Shown here: positions 2,568 through 9,721 of the stretch, one piece after another
Layout: the number at the start of each line of letters is the position of its first letter
Numbering within the stretch: the stretch's first letter is position 1
Source: Acidobacteriota bacterium
GTDB lineage: Bacteria > Acidobacteriota > Terriglobia > Terriglobales > Acidobacteriaceae
NCBI GenBank assembly: GCA_021801945.1
Contig: JAKABE010000088.1
Span: 1 to 10,155, forward strand
DNA length: 10,155 nt
Direction of reading: 5' to 3'
The notes under the pieces: generated by a model
The model's database searches: none
Seen by the model: only the letters and a program-made list of their open reading frames with translations
What the model was told of the DNA's origin: nothing
Program-made: the position numbers and the translations under genes

Positions 2568-3734
2568 ATGCGAGTGGCAAAACGGGACGGACTACAACGA
2601 CAATCCAGAGCGTGGATCGGGCGGTTGGCGATGTTGATTCTGACGCTGTTGGCTGTGGCCATGAACCACGCTCAGGACGGGGGACAACTGGCGCGGATCA
2701 AGGATGTGGCCAGCATCGAAGGGATTCGCGACAACCAGTTAGTCGGCTACGGGCTGGTGGTGGGACTGCGCGGCACCGGCGACAGCCAGCAGACTGTCTT
2801 TCCGGCGCAGACTCTGGTCTCGGCACTGGAGCGGATGGGCGTGACTGTGCCCCAGACCGGCACCATGAGCGTCAACAACATGCAGGTGAAGAACATGGCC
2901 GCTGTCTTCGTGATCGCCACGCTGCCGCCCTTCAGCCAGCCCGGAGAAAGGATTGACGTGACCGTCTCCTCGGCCGGGGATGCGCGCTCGCTCGAGGGCG
3001 GCATCCTGCTGATGACGCCACTCTACGGCCCGGACGGGCAGATCTTCGCCCAGGCCGAAGGGTCTTTGGTCCTGGGCGGTTATGTGGTGGCCTCGGGAGG
3101 GAACAGGCAGCAGATGAACGATCCCACCACGGGGCGCATCCCCGACGGAGCGATCGTGGAGCAGGCGGTGCCCTTCAGTCTGAGCCAGATGCATGTGATC
3201 CATGTCCTTCTGAACGATGCTGACTTCCATACGGCGGAACGGATGGCGGCGGCCGTCAATCGCATCATGGGCTCGGCCCGCGCGCACGCCGTCAACAGTC
3301 GCCTGGTAGAGGTTGCTGTGCTGCCACATGAGGATATCGCGGCCTTGCTGGACAAGGTGGAGTCGGTTCCGATCGAGGTCTATCCGCGCGCCCGGGTGGT
3401 GGTGGACGAGCGCACGGGGACGGTGGTGATCGGAGGCAGGGTGCGCTTGCGGCCGGTTTCGATTTTGCATGGAGGGCTGGAGGTGAATGTGGTCTCTACC
3501 GTCGAGGTCTCGCAGCCCAACCCGCTGTCTGCTGGGACGACCCAGGTGGTGCGGCAGACGGCCGTCCAGGCCCAGGACAAGCCGGTGAATGAGATCAATC
3601 TCAAGGAAGGGGCGACGGTGGAGGATTTGGTCAGGGAGTTGCAACGTACCGGAGCAGGTGCGCGCGACGTGATCTCCATCCTGCAGGCGATGAAGGCGGC
3701 CGGCGCTCTGGAGGCCGATCTGGAGGTGTTGTGA
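2568..3734 (+). CDS. flgI: Flagellar P-ring protein FlgI
   Basis: FlgI assembles as the P ring in the peptidoglycan layer around the rod, with FlgA as chaperone. The 388 residues fit the family. The mature N-terminus carries the signature RIKDVASIEGIRDNQ, then LVGYGLVVGLRGTGD (about residues 43-72). This is followed by QTLVSALERMGV, MQVKNMAAVFVIATLPPF, GERIDVTVSSAGDARSLEGG and LLMTPLYGPDGQIFAQAEGSL. The C-terminus has KEGATVEDLVRELQRTGA and the closing ILQAMKAAGALEADLEVL, both typical. The ATG at 2568 gives a basic n-region (RVAKRDGLQRQSR), then a hydrophobic segment near 20-32 and likely signal cleavage close to A35. An in-frame ATG at 2631 would leave a shorter signal peptide but has a weaker ribosome binding site. 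The stop shares a base with the flgJ start (TGATG). Confidence 0.97.
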   Translation: MRVAKRDGLQRQSRAWIGRLAMLILTLLAVAMNHAQDGGQLARIKDVASIEGIRDNQLVGYGLVVGLRGTGDSQQTVFPAQTLVSALERMGVTVPQTGTMSVNNMQVKNMAAVFVIATLPPFSQPGERIDVTVSSAGDARSLEGGILLMTPLYGPDGQIFAQAEGSLVLGGYVVASGGNRQQMNDPTTGRIPDGAIVEQAVPFSLSQMHVIHVLLNDADFHTAERMAAAVNRIMGSARAHAVNSRLVEVAVLPHEDIAALLDKVESVPIEVYPRARVVVDERTGTVVIGGRVRLRPVSILHGGLEVNVVSTVEVSQPNPLSAGTTQVVRQTAVQAQDKPVNEINLKEGATVEDLVRELQRTGAGARDVISILQAMKAAGALEADLEVL

Positions 3735-4102
3735 TGGCTTCGATTGTGGCACCAGCCGCGGCCAAGTCACCTGCGCATCCGGATGAGACGGTGCCGCAGC
3801 CCAAGTTGGTTCGGGCCGCACACGAGTTCGAGGGAATGATGATGAAGGAACTGCTGAAACCGATGACGGAAGGCGATGCGCTAACCGGCGGCGAAGGCGA
3901 CGACGCCGATCTGGACGCGGGCTCAGGCGGGGCGTTGGCCGAATTTGCCTCTGAGGCTCTCGGCCAAGCGGTCAGCGCGGGGGGCGGCTTTGGGATCGCA
4001 AACTTGATTCTTCGCCGGCTCTCCCACTCCGGCACCCAACACGGAATTGGGAAGGTAACCACAAAATTGCACGGCAATACCGTGATGAGAACGCCTGAAT
4101 GA
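3734..4102 (+). CDS. flgJ: Rod-binding protein, FlgJ N-terminal-domain type
   Basis: This 122-residue cytosol-made, type III-exported protein corresponds to the rod-capping half of FlgJ. VRAAHEFEGMMMKELLKPM (about residues 26-44) matches the FE..F...LL..M helix of the rod-binding domain. GALAEFASEALGQAVSAGGG and GIANLILRRL (about 66-96) match its second conserved helix with the SGGLGIA-type turn. The C-terminal muramidase domain of enterobacterial FlgJ is absent, so peptidoglycan opening must come from another protein. The ATG at 3734 has a strong GGAGGT at 3722-3727 inside the end of flgI and overlaps the flgI stop by one base. Residues 97-122 form a polar tail beyond the usual domain end, encoded by visibly less GC-rich DNA. 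A candidate sigma-28 promoter begins two bases after the stop. Confidence 0.88.
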   Translation: MASIVAPAAAKSPAHPDETVPQPKLVRAAHEFEGMMMKELLKPMTEGDALTGGEGDDADLDAGSGGALAEFASEALGQAVSAGGGFGIANLILRRLSHSGTQHGIGKVTTKLHGNTVMRTPE

Positions 4103-4457: not shown

Positions 4458-4601
4458 GACGCAGGCTGGACTCTGTCGGTCCTCCCATGTCCATCGCTGG
4501 AAAACTCCGGCCCGAGGCAAGTCGGGGCAGCCTCCCGCGCGGACCGGGTGGCGCTGACCGCGCGGCGTCAAGGCGCGGCCGGCTGGAAAGGGAAGCGAGC
4601 G

Positions 4602-4949
4602 ATGCAGGCGAAGACGCGCCTGATATACCCGGAATTGAAGGATCTGGTGGCAGAGGCGTCGCGGGCGCTGGCGCGGTTAGATGCCCCGCGGCTGGCCGCG
4701 CTGGCGCTTTCGTGCCAGGCGCTCAACCGGGATGTTTCCCCACTGGAGACGGACGAGAAGAGGGAATTGGCGCGTCAGGCCCGTGAAGCGGCAGCGGATA
4801 TGGCTGTCTTCGCGAGAGTGCTGGAGGCGACGCGCGCCAATTTGCGGGTGATGGACCGCTTGCGGGAGTTGCGCGCAGGCCGGTTGGAGTACAGCGAGCG
4901 CCAGGCGCGGGGCTATGCAGACTCGGAGAGCGGGCATGGGAACAATTAA
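4602..4949 (+). CDS. flgN: Putative FlgN-like export chaperone
   Basis: This 115-residue, almost entirely helical protein has no signal peptide or membrane segment. It shows two long charged/Leu-rich helical stretches (about 10-40 and 50-100). The C-terminal segment EATRANLRVMDRLRELRAG, then LEYSERQARGY resembles the FlgN pattern of an N..N...L..L helix followed by a tyrosine-glycine element that binds client tails. FlgN-type chaperones keep FlgK and FlgL export-competent, and both genes follow here, which is the strongest support. The ATG at 4602 has GGGAAG at 4590-4595; an in-frame GTG at 4548 would add 18 residues but has no good ribosome binding site. The last 14 bases overlap flgK, indicating coupled translation. 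Sequence similarity alone is weak, so the name depends on context. Confidence 0.72.
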   Translation: MQAKTRLIYPELKDLVAEASRALARLDAPRLAALALSCQALNRDVSPLETDEKRELARQAREAAADMAVFARVLEATRANLRVMDRLRELRAGRLEYSERQARGYADSESGHGNN

Positions 4950-7056
4950 CTCCGCATTCAGTCTCATCTCCGGCGCGCTCAACGCCGATCAGGCGGCCCT
5001 GAGTGTTGTAGCGAACAACGTCGCCAACGCCAATACCACCGGCTACACGCGTGAGACTCCCAACTGGCAGGAGAACCAGCCCATCTCGATCAATGGAGTG
5101 TTGATGGGCGACGGAGTGACGGAGGCGGGCGCAACCTCGCAGCGTGACCGTGTCCTCGAGGAGCGGTTGGATCAGCAGCAACAATTGGCTTCTGCATCGA
5201 GTGTTCGTCTGACCGCGCTCAACAACATTCAGTCTCTCTTTACGCCAGATTCGGGCACCTCCAATTCGACGGCCGGCGATATCGGAAGCGATATAACCAG
5301 TTTCTTCGATTCCTTTTCCTCGCTCGAAGCCAATCCCACCAACAACGCATTGCGTGAGCAGGTGCTGTCCGCCGCGGCGACCTTGGCGGGCGGCATTCGC
5401 AATGCGGCGAACAACCTGAATGCCCAAGGTGCGGCCCTGAACCAGGAAGCTACCGGCGTCGCCAGCCAGGTCAATTCGCTGACTAGCGCCATTGCGCAGC
5501 TCAATCTGGAGATTCAATCCGTCTCGCCCAACGCCGATGCGGGCACTCTGGAGGACCAGCGACAGCAAGATCTGAGCCAGCTTTCGCAGCTCATCGGCAT
5601 CAACCAAGTGACCACCGAAAACAACGGGCTCTCAATGACCACCACCTCGGGGCAGTTGCTCGTCTCTCAAGGCCAGAGCTTTCAGGTGACCACAGCAACC
5701 GTAAATGGACAAACAGATTTCTTCATGAACGGGGCGGACATCACGTCTCAGTTGGCTGCGGGCGGAGGGCAACTGGGCGGCTACCTGACTGCCCGGGACC
5801 AGGATATTCCCACCGTGCTCAGTTCGCTGGATCAGTTGGCCTTTGGAATCGCGACAACTGTGAATGCGCAAAATAACGCGGGTACGGATCTCGATGGAAC
5901 AACCGGCACAGCCACCAGTCCGCTGAATATCTTCAGAGAACCAACGCAAGTGGCCGGCAGCGCCGCAGCAATGAGCGTGGTGATGACAGATCCCAATCAG
6001 ATCGCGGCCGCGGGCGCTGGCAAGGGCGCGGGGGACAACTCGAATGCCGTGGCCATGGCCGATCTTGCCCAAGGCCCGCTTATCGCTCCATCGGCAACCT
6101 CGGCCTTCAGTATCACCCAGAATCTGAGTGCGGCAACACCTACAGGGAACTCCGTCTTGGGAACCACGGCCGTCTACGACTCGCTGGGCAAGAGCTATCA
6201 GGCGACCGTCACCTATACCAAACAGAGCACGGACCAATGGGCGTATCAGGTTTCTCTGGCCGACGTGCTCGCGCCGGACACCAGCGTAGCCGGGCAGGTC
6301 GGCTTCACATTCGGCGCCGGCGAAACCGTCGATCCCGGAACCGACCTGACAATTTCGGGCGTAACCGCCGGCGGGGGATTGGCGACGATGAATGCACCGG
6401 CGGTTACCGCAGGCGAGACGGTAGGTGACGCCGGTACCGGCTACGTGCAGGCGTTGAACAATGCGATTGCCGCGGCGGGAATCACCGGCATTACGGTGAC
6501 AAACAATGGCGGCCTGCTCACGATCTCCGGCGCGACGGCGACCAGCGGCAGCGTGATTGCGAATCCCGTGGCGGCCAATGCGAGCGGAACCCTTACTTTC
6601 AATTCCGGCAGCCTCGTCACCCCAAGCGCAAACGCCACGGGAATTGTATTTTCGGGGCTCTCCGACGGCGCCGCCCCGCTCAGCCTGACTTGGGATCTCT
6701 ATGGCCCGGGTGACGCGCCGCAGCTGACCGAGACCGCTGCGGCCTCGGAGCAGACGGCTCAGAGCCAGAATGGATCAGCCGGGAACAGCCAATCCCCGAT
6801 CAACTTTTATTCCAACTTCGTATCCACGCTCGGTTCCAGGGTCTCTGAGGTGCAAACGGACAACACGGCACAGAATGCTTCCGTGAGCCAGTTGCAGACC
6901 CAGAACAACGCCTTGTCGAGCGTCAACTTGAACGATGAAGCATCCGCGATGTCCACCTTGGAGACGAGCTATCAGGCGGCGTCGCAGGTCTTCACGATCC
7001 TCAACACCATCATGGCCTCGGCGTTGAATCTGGGTGTGCAGACGGCGGTGGCGTAA
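4936..7056 (+). CDS. flgK: Hook-associated protein 1 FlgK with an extra central hook-type domain
   Basis: FlgK forms the first junction ring between hook and filament and is exported by the flagellar type III system. I start at ATG 4936 (GGAGAG at 4925-4930; MGTINSAFSLISGALNADQ), not at the in-frame ATG 4915, giving 706 residues. The N-terminal D0 helix carries NNVANANTTGY (27-37). Family blocks follow: FFDSFSSLEANPTNNALREQ, an N..VTSLT..IA.LN-type helix (QVNSLTSAIAQLNLEIQSV), DQRQQDLSQLSQLIGI and GAGDNSNAVAMADLAQG. The C-terminus is also typical: INFYSNFVSTLGSRVSEVQ (about 622-640), SVNLNDEASAMSTLETSYQAA and the final ILNTIMASALNLGV helix. The oddity is length: E. coli FlgK has 547 residues. 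Removing about residues 384-620 leaves ~470 residues of ordinary FlgK. That extra segment resembles FlgE domain D2 and is described separately. Confidence 0.95.
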   Translation: MGTINSAFSLISGALNADQAALSVVANNVANANTTGYTRETPNWQENQPISINGVLMGDGVTEAGATSQRDRVLEERLDQQQQLASASSVRLTALNNIQSLFTPDSGTSNSTAGDIGSDITSFFDSFSSLEANPTNNALREQVLSAAATLAGGIRNAANNLNAQGAALNQEATGVASQVNSLTSAIAQLNLEIQSVSPNADAGTLEDQRQQDLSQLSQLIGINQVTTENNGLSMTTTSGQLLVSQGQSFQVTTATVNGQTDFFMNGADITSQLAAGGGQLGGYLTARDQDIPTVLSSLDQLAFGIATTVNAQNNAGTDLDGTTGTATSPLNIFREPTQVAGSAAAMSVVMTDPNQIAAAGAGKGAGDNSNAVAMADLAQGPLIAPSATSAFSITQNLSAATPTGNSVLGTTAVYDSLGKSYQATVTYTKQSTDQWAYQVSLADVLAPDTSVAGQVGFTFGAGETVDPGTDLTISGVTAGGGLATMNAPAVTAGETVGDAGTGYVQALNNAIAAAGITGITVTNNGGLLTISGATATSGSVIANPVAANASGTLTFNSGSLVTPSANATGIVFSGLSDGAAPLSLTWDLYGPGDAPQLTETAAASEQTAQSQNGSAGNSQSPINFYSNFVSTLGSRVSEVQTDNTAQNASVSQLQTQNNALSSVNLNDEASAMSTLETSYQAASQVFTILNTIMASALNLGVQTAVA
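6085..6801 (+). other. FlgE D2-like (FlaE-type) domain inserted in FlgK, itself split by a second insert
   Basis: This segment of flgK codes for about residues 384-622. The first part reads NSVLGTTAVYDSLGKSYQ, then ATVTYTK.STDQWAYQV (about 404-442). The last part reads GTLTFNSG (about 550-557), then GIVFSGLSDGAAPLSLTWDL, then QLTETAAASEQTAQSQNGS (to about 614). In family terms these are the opening strands (tvYDSlG..h..tvtftk....W.y.v) and closing strands (GtLtFds.G.l......i..l.dGa..l...w.l......tq.a..s....s.dG.) of the FlgE D2 domain. Between them lies a ~95-residue stretch (about 456-549) rich in Gly/Ala/Thr with TDLTISGV, GYVQALNNAIAAAGITGITVTN and GGLLTISG, which looks like another small beta domain. 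The assignment is by pattern recognition, without an alignment. Confidence 0.75.
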
Positions 7057-7190: not shown

Positions 7191-8105
7191 ATGCGGGTGG
7201 ATCCCTACTATGTTTCAAATCTGGTTGGTTCGCTCAATCAGACTCAGGAGCAGGAGCAGCAGCTAACTTCGGAGCTTTCCAGTGGCGTCAGCATTGCGTC
7301 CATCGGTCAGAATCCCGTGGCTTCTGGAGAGAATGTGCTGCTGCTCAACCGAATCCAGCAGGAAGACTCCTTTACCGCCAGTGCGAACTTGGTGACGGGC
7401 CAGTTGCAGGTAGCGGATTCGGCGCTAGGCAGTGTCGTCTCCGAACTGACACAGGCGGTTTCGCTGGCAACCAGCGCCAGCAATGGCACCCTGAACCCCA
7501 GCGACGTCAAGTCCATTGCGATGCAGATCTCCGGCATTCTCAACGAGGTGCAGTCGCTGGCCAACACCAGCTATCAGGGCCAATACATCTTCGCGGGCGG
7601 CGAAGCAGCGACGGCACCGTTTACCACCTCCACGGCGACCTCGCCCGCCGTGACTACCTACCGCGGCGACGAAAACATCAACTATCTTGAGCTCCCCAAC
7701 GGCCAAGAGATCCAGTTGAATGTGCCAGGAGACCAGATCTTTCTGGGTGCCGGAGCCAACAGTGTGTTTGGCGCGCTGAACGCGCTGGTGGCCGACTATT
7801 CAACCGGCACAGTGGACACCGGTCAGGCCGTCGCCGACACGACGGCGTTAAGCTCCGCGCTCAACTACGTCTCGCAACAGCGCGTAACGATCGACAATTC
7901 CATGAACCAGCTCAGTGCCGCCTCCGGAGCGGTGACCAGCGAGCAGACACAACTCATCGCGGCGCAGACGGACTTGATACAAGCCGACATTCCCACGGTT
8001 TCCACGCAACTTTCGCTGGCCGAGACGCAACAGACAGCTCTCGAGGACGTGATCGCGCAATTGGAGTCGGTGTCGAACAGCCTGTTCAGCAAACTGCCAG
8101 GCTGA
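7191..8105 (+). CDS. flgL: Hook-associated protein 3 FlgL
   Basis: FlgL forms the second junction ring between FlgK and the flagellin filament. The 304 residues are close to the E. coli length (317). The N-terminal coiled-coil half reads MRVDPYYVSNLVGSLNQTQE, then QQLTSELSSGVSIASIGQNPVASGE, matching the family pattern QL..qlSSGkri..psDdPvaa. The repeated helix NLVTGQLQVADSALGSVVSEL follows. SYQGQYIFAGGEAATAPF (about 125-142) is the family's G.YlFaG segment. The C-terminal helix ends in LSLAETQQTALEDVIAQLESVSNSLF, as in flagellin-like proteins. The ATG at 7191 follows AGGAG at 7179-7183, which lies inside the heptamer repeat. It would be a client of the FlgN-like chaperone encoded upstream. 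No flagellar gene follows it in this window. Confidence 0.95.
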   Translation: MRVDPYYVSNLVGSLNQTQEQEQQLTSELSSGVSIASIGQNPVASGENVLLLNRIQQEDSFTASANLVTGQLQVADSALGSVVSELTQAVSLATSASNGTLNPSDVKSIAMQISGILNEVQSLANTSYQGQYIFAGGEAATAPFTTSTATSPAVTTYRGDENINYLELPNGQEIQLNVPGDQIFLGAGANSVFGALNALVADYSTGTVDTGQAVADTTALSSALNYVSQQRVTIDNSMNQLSAASGAVTSEQTQLIAAQTDLIQADIPTVSTQLSLAETQQTALEDVIAQLESVSNSLFSKLPG

Positions 8106-8567: not shown

Positions 8568-8594
8568 TATTCCTCTGGCGTGTGCAGAGGCATA
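8568..8594 (+). other. Inverted repeat upstream of the VWFA gene
   Basis: CCTCTG (8572-8577) and CAGAGG (8585-8590) form a perfect 6-bp stem around GCGTGTG. Beyond one mismatch it extends by TAT (8568-8570) with ATA (8592-8594). It lies 84 bases before the chosen ATG of the next gene. It could be an operator or a leader hairpin. No clear promoter accompanies it in 8502-8677. Confidence 0.35.
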
Positions 8595-8677
8595 AGGCCG
8601 ACGTCCCGGCGCCATCCATGTTCTGCGGGATCCAAAGAATGAACGGCCCGGTGTCGAGTACCCTGGAAGAAGAGCGT

Positions 8678-9721
8678 ATGAGAATCGGCATTCACTGTGA
8701 TTGGCTGGCAAGCGCAGCCCTGCTCTCGACGGCCTTGGCCTGGGGGCAGCAGGCGCCACCTCAGTTGCCGCCCATTGAGCCGCCCAAACCCATGCCCGTT
8801 TCCCATTCTGCTCAGACGCCCGCGCTGCGCGTAACAACCACCGAGGTTCTGGTGCCGACGCTCGTCGAAGAGCACAGCGGCAGCATTATCTACGGCCTCA
8901 AGCAGAAGGATTTCCTGCTCGAAGACAACGGCGTGCCCCAGAGGATCCACGTGCAGGCAGAGATGGACACGGCCCCGGTGGCGCTGGTGGTGGCCGTGGA
9001 GCTGGGCGGCGCCAGCGTGCTGGAATTCGGCAGGCTGGCCAAGCTGGGGCCATTGCTTCAGCTCTTCATGGCTTCTCCAGGAAGCGAGGTGGCCCTGGTG
9101 GGTTTCGATTCCACCCAATATCTGATCCAGGATTTCACGCATTCCGGCGGCTTGGTGGATAAGGAACTCACTGAGTTGCGGCCTGGGAACGGCGGCGCGG
9201 CGATCCTGGACACCGTGAGCTATGCCGTCAACTTGCTGGAAACGCAGCCGCGAACCTACCGGCGGGTTTTGCTTCTAATCAGCGAGCGGCGCGACCACGG
9301 AAGCAAGCATACCCGGCCGGAGCAGTTGCTCCAGCAGATCGGCGAGTCGGACGTACTGGTGCTGAGCGTTTCGTTCTCCCCGGCGGTGGCCGAATTCACC
9401 CATGACGTCCAGGACTCCGGCGAAGATCGCACCATGAACATGATTTCGCCCATCATCATGGCTATCAATGCCTTCAAAAAGAACGTGACCAAGGAGATTG
9501 CTCAACTGACGGGCGGCGAGTATATGAGCTTTAGCGGCACCAGAGGGTTCGAACAGCGGGTCGTCAATGCAGCCGCGCACATGCGCAACCGCTACCTGAT
9601 CACCTTCAGTCCCTCCAATCCCACTCCCGGACTGCACACCATCAAGGTGCGGACGGTCGAAGACTACGGAGCAAGGATTGTGGCGCGGACCAACTATTGG
9701 ATTGGGCCGCAGGCGCAATAG
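8678..9721 (+). CDS. Secreted VWFA-related acidobacterial-domain protein with a degenerate metal site
   Basis: The ATG at 8678 follows GGAAGAAGAG and gives 347 residues opening with a signal peptide (MRIGIHCDWLASAALLSTALAW, likely cleaved after G23). An in-frame GTG at 8582 would bury that signal 32 residues in. A short Pro-rich linker follows (PPQLPPIEPPKPMP). The next block (RVTTTEVLVPTLVEEHSG...YGLKQKDFLLEDNGVPQ) is the lead-in typical of the 'VWFA-related Acidobacterial domain' family. The von Willebrand A-like fold comes next: VALVVAVELGGAS, GSEVALVGFDST, GGAAILDTVSYAVNLL, RVLLLISERRDHGS and a C-terminal MRNRYLITFSP..P.PGLHTIKV. All three metal-site motifs deviate. DxSxS is E108-L-G-G-A112. 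The Thr of GGTA is A174. The Asp of the ISD motif is E203. Role and partners are unknown; it probably acts outside the cytoplasm by protein binding. There is no visible link to the flagellum. Confidence 0.88.
   Translation: MRIGIHCDWLASAALLSTALAWGQQAPPQLPPIEPPKPMPVSHSAQTPALRVTTTEVLVPTLVEEHSGSIIYGLKQKDFLLEDNGVPQRIHVQAEMDTAPVALVVAVELGGASVLEFGRLAKLGPLLQLFMASPGSEVALVGFDSTQYLIQDFTHSGGLVDKELTELRPGNGGAAILDTVSYAVNLLETQPRTYRRVLLLISERRDHGSKHTRPEQLLQQIGESDVLVLSVSFSPAVAEFTHDVQDSGEDRTMNMISPIIMAINAFKKNVTKEIAQLTGGEYMSFSGTRGFEQRVVNAAAHMRNRYLITFSPSNPTPGLHTIKVRTVEDYGARIVARTNYWIGPQAQ

Follow-up and report, generated by a model that had tools for sequence, protein, structure and literature searches.

What has become of the outer part of the flagellar junction protein FlgK (HAP1) encoded on contig JAKABE010000088.1 of an Acidobacteriota bacterium? 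This 10,155-nucleotide stretch (the window) carries a flagellar operon whose host, as judged by the named matches to its FlgK, is a member of the Acidobacteriaceae near Terracidiphilus, and about 237 extra residues sit between the ordinary N- and C-terminal ends of the flgK product. The original prediction, made from the sequence, ascribed these residues to the FlaE-type D2 domain of the hook protein FlgE. The comparisons described here uphold that assignment and indicate, almost certainly, a FlgE D2 transplanted into FlgK. Flagellar axial proteins are thought to share origins; a second clear case in which one working axial paralogue passed a domain to another, and which can be traced to a single genus, is not known to us. 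A FlgE D2 within FlgK was not reported in the literature matches listed, from a collection outside which most subscription journals lie. Divergent FlgK outer domains are already known (PMC5691160); the present protein is classed as a FlgK that carries, almost certainly, a transplanted FlgE D2.

A FlgE-type D2 domain within FlgK

The product of the flgK frame scored 265.4 bits against TIGR02492 (flgK_ends, cut-off 170.75), which identifies it as a FlgK, and the helical FlgK_D1 domain is present (154 bits, profile search). The FlgE/F/G D1 domain PF22692 was not listed for it; the protein is a FlgK and not a whole FlgE. Translation probably starts at 4936, since the conserved MGTINS.. begins at residue 8; the FlgK entry P0001 has 706 residues. 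Alignment with insert-less FlgKs agrees with the predicted layout, the highest flank identity (85%) being to insert-less locus L028. The motifs follow one another as had been described, positions 6085-6801 corresponding to residues 391-629.

The FlgE D2 profile PF07559, run on the segment alone, gave a significant match (E 1.9e-7, 32.1 bits, cut-off 22.7) with its best stretch at residues 416-496. On the whole FlgK protein it reached 20.5 bits, below the same cut-off, which fits its absence from the precomputed annotation of P0001. As controls, E. coli FlgE scored 81.7 bits with PF07559 and E. coli FlgK 97.9 bits with PF21158, the E. coli-type FlgK D2; PF07559 was not listed for E. coli FlgK, nor for L028 in the profile search. 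PF21158 was not listed for the window FlgK at E values up to 10, a range in which the HMMER filters drop most matches above 0.1. FlgEs from relatives can be aligned to the segment (for example L064, 151 bits in one stretch) and FlgK relatives align with the flanks. Within the segment, a nested module shares 63% identity, across 100 residues, with the corresponding module in the FlgE of genome G167 (L228), with a score of 244 where the best of 200 shuffles reached 97.

The structural model of the segment displays the FlgE D2 fold, as predicted. Among the matches listed for this model in VIA no FlgK chain is named, which says nothing on whether the folds differ, and phmmer gave no match between the segment and PDB sequences. 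FlgE and FlgK D2s have 27 core positions in common that reach at least 80% conservation in each group, with 18 further positions conserved in FlgK only and 10 in FlgE only (70 FlgE and 66 long FlgK D2s; 14 FlgEs and six compact FlgKs set aside). A chance or weak hidden Markov model match was rejected on the controls, the shuffles and the structural comparison. An assembly error is unlikely, as the domain is in frame in many contigs from several sources.

The known FlgE D2 (PF07559; Salmonella 1wlg and 3a69, Treponema denticola 6ndw) belongs to the hook protein, whereas here it is seated in FlgK between the D1 parts and has conserved positions of its own, such as Q402 and Q613. FlgKs with their own D2 (PF21158, E. 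coli; Salmonella 2d4y and 9go6) share with the window protein the D0-D1 ends, the flgN-flgK-flgL order and the slot after FlgK_D1, but their outer domain comes from another family. Campylobacter FlgK likewise has an outer domain unlike the enterobacterial type, proposed to fit its hook; the passages of that report considered here do not call it FlgE-derived (PMC5691160), whereas here FlgE ancestry is shown by the tree described below.

Origin, distribution and probable exchange of the domain

A tree of 149 D2 core columns was built from 81 FlgEs (84 before thinning) and 57 FlgKs (72 before thinning), with the FlgEs of the FCPU426 genome left out. All FlgK D2s form one clade (support 100/100), sister to the FlgEs of G167 and G179 (99/91) amid long-type FlgEs of the same genus. 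The tree supports recombination between flgE and flgK, which had been put forward as one possible origin, and the transfer ran from FlgE to FlgK because FlgE D2 is widespread and FlgK D2 confined. It brought the nested module along. The limits of the insert lie approximately at the D1-D2 hinges of FlgE; on the FlgK side they fall in a short loop, LA..IVNGQTP, and a majority of 55 insert-less rows, outgroups among them, have this loop in the same or a similar form. The recipient would have been an ancestral Acidobacteriota FlgK lacking such a D2, and the donor of the whole domain, nested module included, a hook protein FlgE from the same genus; the domain would have entered the loop in which other FlgKs hold their own D2, with cuts near the FlgE hinges. 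The domain would then have diverged within FlgK and gained its own signature.

FlgK D2 folds vary by species, and those of Salmonella and Burkholderia are eight-stranded barrels (PMC5691160), but that the segment is an ordinary variable FlgK outer domain, resembling FlgE D2 only through a shared β-barrel, is scarcely credible given the sequence-level PF07559 match, the nested module common to FlgE and FlgK D2s, the FlgK D2 clade nested among the FlgEs of one genus, the different family of the E. coli FlgK D2 and the 64 of 65 phylum-sampled FlgKs without such an insertion. The D2 tree, the genus, family and phylum surveys and the E. coli control speak against the outcome that the original prediction had named as contrary to it.

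The nested module perhaps folds like the outer domains of flagellin and FliD. Enlarged FlgE D2 regions also occur in the genus, in frames of 799-1408 residues (L226:554-4777, L220:753-3596, L219:692-3253, L071:1-2397), and the L071 FlgE carries the module several times in tandem.

In six FlgKs (L001, L002, L003, L165, P0099 and P0104) the nested module is missing and the D2 is compact, at about 160 residues. The best identity of its middle tract is 0.72-0.80 to compact FlgEs vs 0.47-0.53 to other FlgK D2s. At the two ends the relation is reversed (to FlgK 0.70-0.74 and 0.59-0.78, to compact FlgE 0.50-0.58 and 0.41-0.52), the last end stretch spanning 27 columns only. In a tree of the middle tract (64 columns) the compact FlgKs group with 35 compact FlgEs (99/93). 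When the core is split in two halves all FlgK D2s still fall on one side (80, 90), and the conversion signal is thus confined to the middle tract. Part of the cassette would have been overwritten again in this subgroup by compact-type flgE sequence, a second event for which confidence is good.

The insert is present in five of the 49 loci matched by the window FlgK (L001, L002, L003, L005 and L007); 43 align without it and L047 ends before the site. Complete insert-less frames in Acidobacteriota span 478-556 residues (L016, L021, L031, L046 and L048 are cut or broken), and a 568-residue FlgK from another phylum (L049, FCPU426), a single case met in passing, has no insert. In one genus, 58 of 80 genomes were classified by hand, 12 with the insert (two fragmentary, G193 and G212) and 46 without; at least two insert-less genomes were not entered (G206, and G203, partial). 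Across the family (150 genomes, 71 with FlgK over the cut-off) the only long split-match FlgK frame is that of the seed genome G001, several others being fragments. Across the phylum (247 genomes), a FlgK match at E <= 1e-20 was obtained in 65, and 64 of these are single unbroken matches of 1.3-1.5 kb. PF07559 (E <= 0.001) overlaps FlgK in G001 only, while FlgE D2 was found in 63 of the 247 genomes. Insert-less FlgK is therefore the norm in the sampled phylum.

Four insert-less FlgKs (L026, L174, L185, L187) carry a short insertion, ..PPILNGLTLPDGTTLASGQTLL.. or similar, in the same loop, a second type of change there. A second, distant FlgK (L105-L110, L112-L114), a second FlgE type (L050, L135, L137-L140, L142, L144, L149, L233) or both occur in several genomes of the genus, which suggests two flagellar systems in one genome, for example G004.

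When presence of the insert is mapped on a tree of the FlgK flanks (127 rows after thinning from 185; 72 carry the insert), 16 changes are required, of which starred branches force no fewer than nine. A hand-picked 45-row subset needs 11, at least six forced, and a single carrier clade is rejected (log-likelihood difference 280, approximately unbiased (AU) test p 4.5e-86). One D2 origin together with polyphyletic carriers implies either exchange of flgK alleles or many losses. Synonymous divergence (dS) was compared for pairs with flank dS < 2. In all six pairs of L001, L002, L003 and L165, dS is 0.20-0.53 in D2 vs 0.78-1.11 in the flanks, and this low silent-site divergence favours exchange. 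Third-position identity agrees among L002, L003 and L165, whose three pairs show 0.76-0.91 in D2 bins vs 0.38-0.74 in flank bins; the contrast is weaker in L001 pairs, and the L001-L165 bins overlap. Homologous recombination of flgK would have carried the cassette from one lineage to another, leaving a patchy presence; this holds very probably for the compact form and, with less assurance, for the long form.

A single transplant followed by vertical descent and many independent losses, the cassette never crossing species, would equally give one D2 clade. Losses are easily imagined for a dispensable loop domain, and no clear D2 drop appears at the silent sites of long-form pairs. This history is nonetheless improbable: it must accommodate the forced changes on the flank tree, most insert-less rows keep the outgroup loop with no scars, and silent divergence within the compact D2s is low, which counts against this history for that subgroup and not for the long form.

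Possible role in the junction ring

Hook D2 forms the outermost layer of the hook and makes contacts along 6-start lines only (PMC6769732, PMC11839096), and FlgK forms a ring between hook and FlgL with its D2 exposed (PMC12221982). A FlgE-type D2 on FlgK could thus prolong the hook layer by one ring. In the first junction ring, each of eleven FlgK subunits would expose a hook-type D2 at the outer surface. These domains may pack onto the last FlgE D2s or next to them and make the outer shell of the hook wider or longer, joining still being done by the FlgK D0-D1 core. Such an extension of the outer shell is plausible, if slightly short of probable.

Alternatively, variable decoration of the surface may be the main role of the domain, masking the junction from phages, predators or surfaces or changing it for them, without hook-like contacts. 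Patchy presence and exchange, more amino-acid change in the long D2 than in the flanks, independence from the FlgE type of the same cell and a nested module with a possibly flagellin- or FliD-like fold agree with this, which we regard as possible though on the doubtful side. Against it, the barrel core is conserved, FlgK-specific positions are conserved and the ratio of nonsynonymous to synonymous divergence is low, at about 0.12 (0.151/1.28, L163-L164); the D2 is under constraint. More tentatively, and rather doubtfully, flgE and flgK of the genus may share one exchangeable outer-shell cassette that jumped from hook to junction, moves from species to species as a presence/absence polymorphism, is re-supplied from flgE by gene conversion, prolongs the D2 spring layer of the hook in some strains but not others and is under diversifying selection.

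Taken as a whole, a chimera with later exchange, conversion and display at the junction is probably the best explanation. Several observations weigh against it. The D2 tree has few columns, unsettled bootstrap, an outgroup root and one misplaced outgroup row, and a single clade of all FlgK D2s was compatible with the 64 middle-tract columns in the AU test (p 0.122). Silent sites of the long form are near saturation and mixed: dS is higher in D2 for L163-L164 (0.94 flanks, 1.28 D2) and for L162 pairs, and lower in D2 for window pairs with L163, L164 and L166 (with L164, 1.65 flanks and 1.05 D2). Long-form exchange therefore rests on the trees, and our confidence in it was lowered. The flank vs D2 congruence test rejects in both directions (log-likelihood differences 368 and 279) and is anticonservative, random flank halves rejecting each other by 93 and 143, contiguous halves by 173 and 241, and the D2 comparisons in this control giving 195-492; mosaicism is thus not special to D2 and the test carries little weight. 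The 46 insert-less FlgKs among the 58 classified in the genus mark the domain as dispensable there. Matching to the geometry of the cell's own hook, which the original prediction had entertained, so far finds no support: the FlgK D2 is nearest to its own-genome FlgE in one of eight genomes compared (the window's own FlgE not among them), and whether a genome carries the insert shows no relation to the D2 length of its own FlgE (Fisher p 0.33, kinship uncorrected), carriers having three long and nine compact FlgEs and non-carriers 18 long, 24 compact and four with no FlgE found. The three independent pairs had no power to detect an association with FlgE length.

Insert-bearing and insert-less FlgKs with flanks up to 85% identical to those of the window protein constitute a natural test of the role of the junction outer domain, and also of domain gain in a nanomachine whose parts must fit.

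Operon context and coordinates

The flagellar genes follow the order flgG..flgH flgI flgJ flgM flgN flgK flgL, with flgK before flgL and weak matches for flgJ and flgN (Table 1).

Table 1. Positions of flagellar genes and of the parts of FlgK in the window.
Feature	Position	Strand	Basis
flgJ-like gene	3731-4102	+	weak Pfam match, E 0.49; named mainly by position
flgN-like gene	4548..4949	+	weak FlgN match, E 0.11, plus position; directly 5' of the flgK frame and overlapping it
flgK	4915..7056	+	713-residue open reading frame; TIGR02492 and FlgK_D1 (scores in text)
FlgK D0-D1, N-terminal part	4936..6069	+	residues 8-385; FlgK_D1 118-332, Flg_bb_rod 20-45; flank identity to insert-less L028
FlgE-type D2, almost certainly transplanted	6070..6780	+	residues ~386-622; sister FlgKs, L028 for example, lack it
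D2 barrel, N half	6094..6273	+	residues 394-453, ATSAFSITQNL..YDSLG..WAYQV; alignment with FlgEs
Nested module inside D2	6280..6582	+	residues 456-556; common to long-D2 FlgEs
D2 barrel, C half	6583..6774	+	residues 557-620, GTLTFNSG..GLSDGAAPLSLTWDL..QTAQSQNG; alignment with FlgEs
FlgK C-terminal D1-D0 part resumes	6793..7053	+	residues 627-713, SPINFYSNFVSTLG..; alignment with insert-less FlgKs
flgL	7191..8105	+	Flagellin_N 54.3 bits plus position; directly 3' of flgK

A gene for a VWA-domain protein (8582-9721, + strand; VWA_2, 27.9 bits) adjoins the end of the operon.
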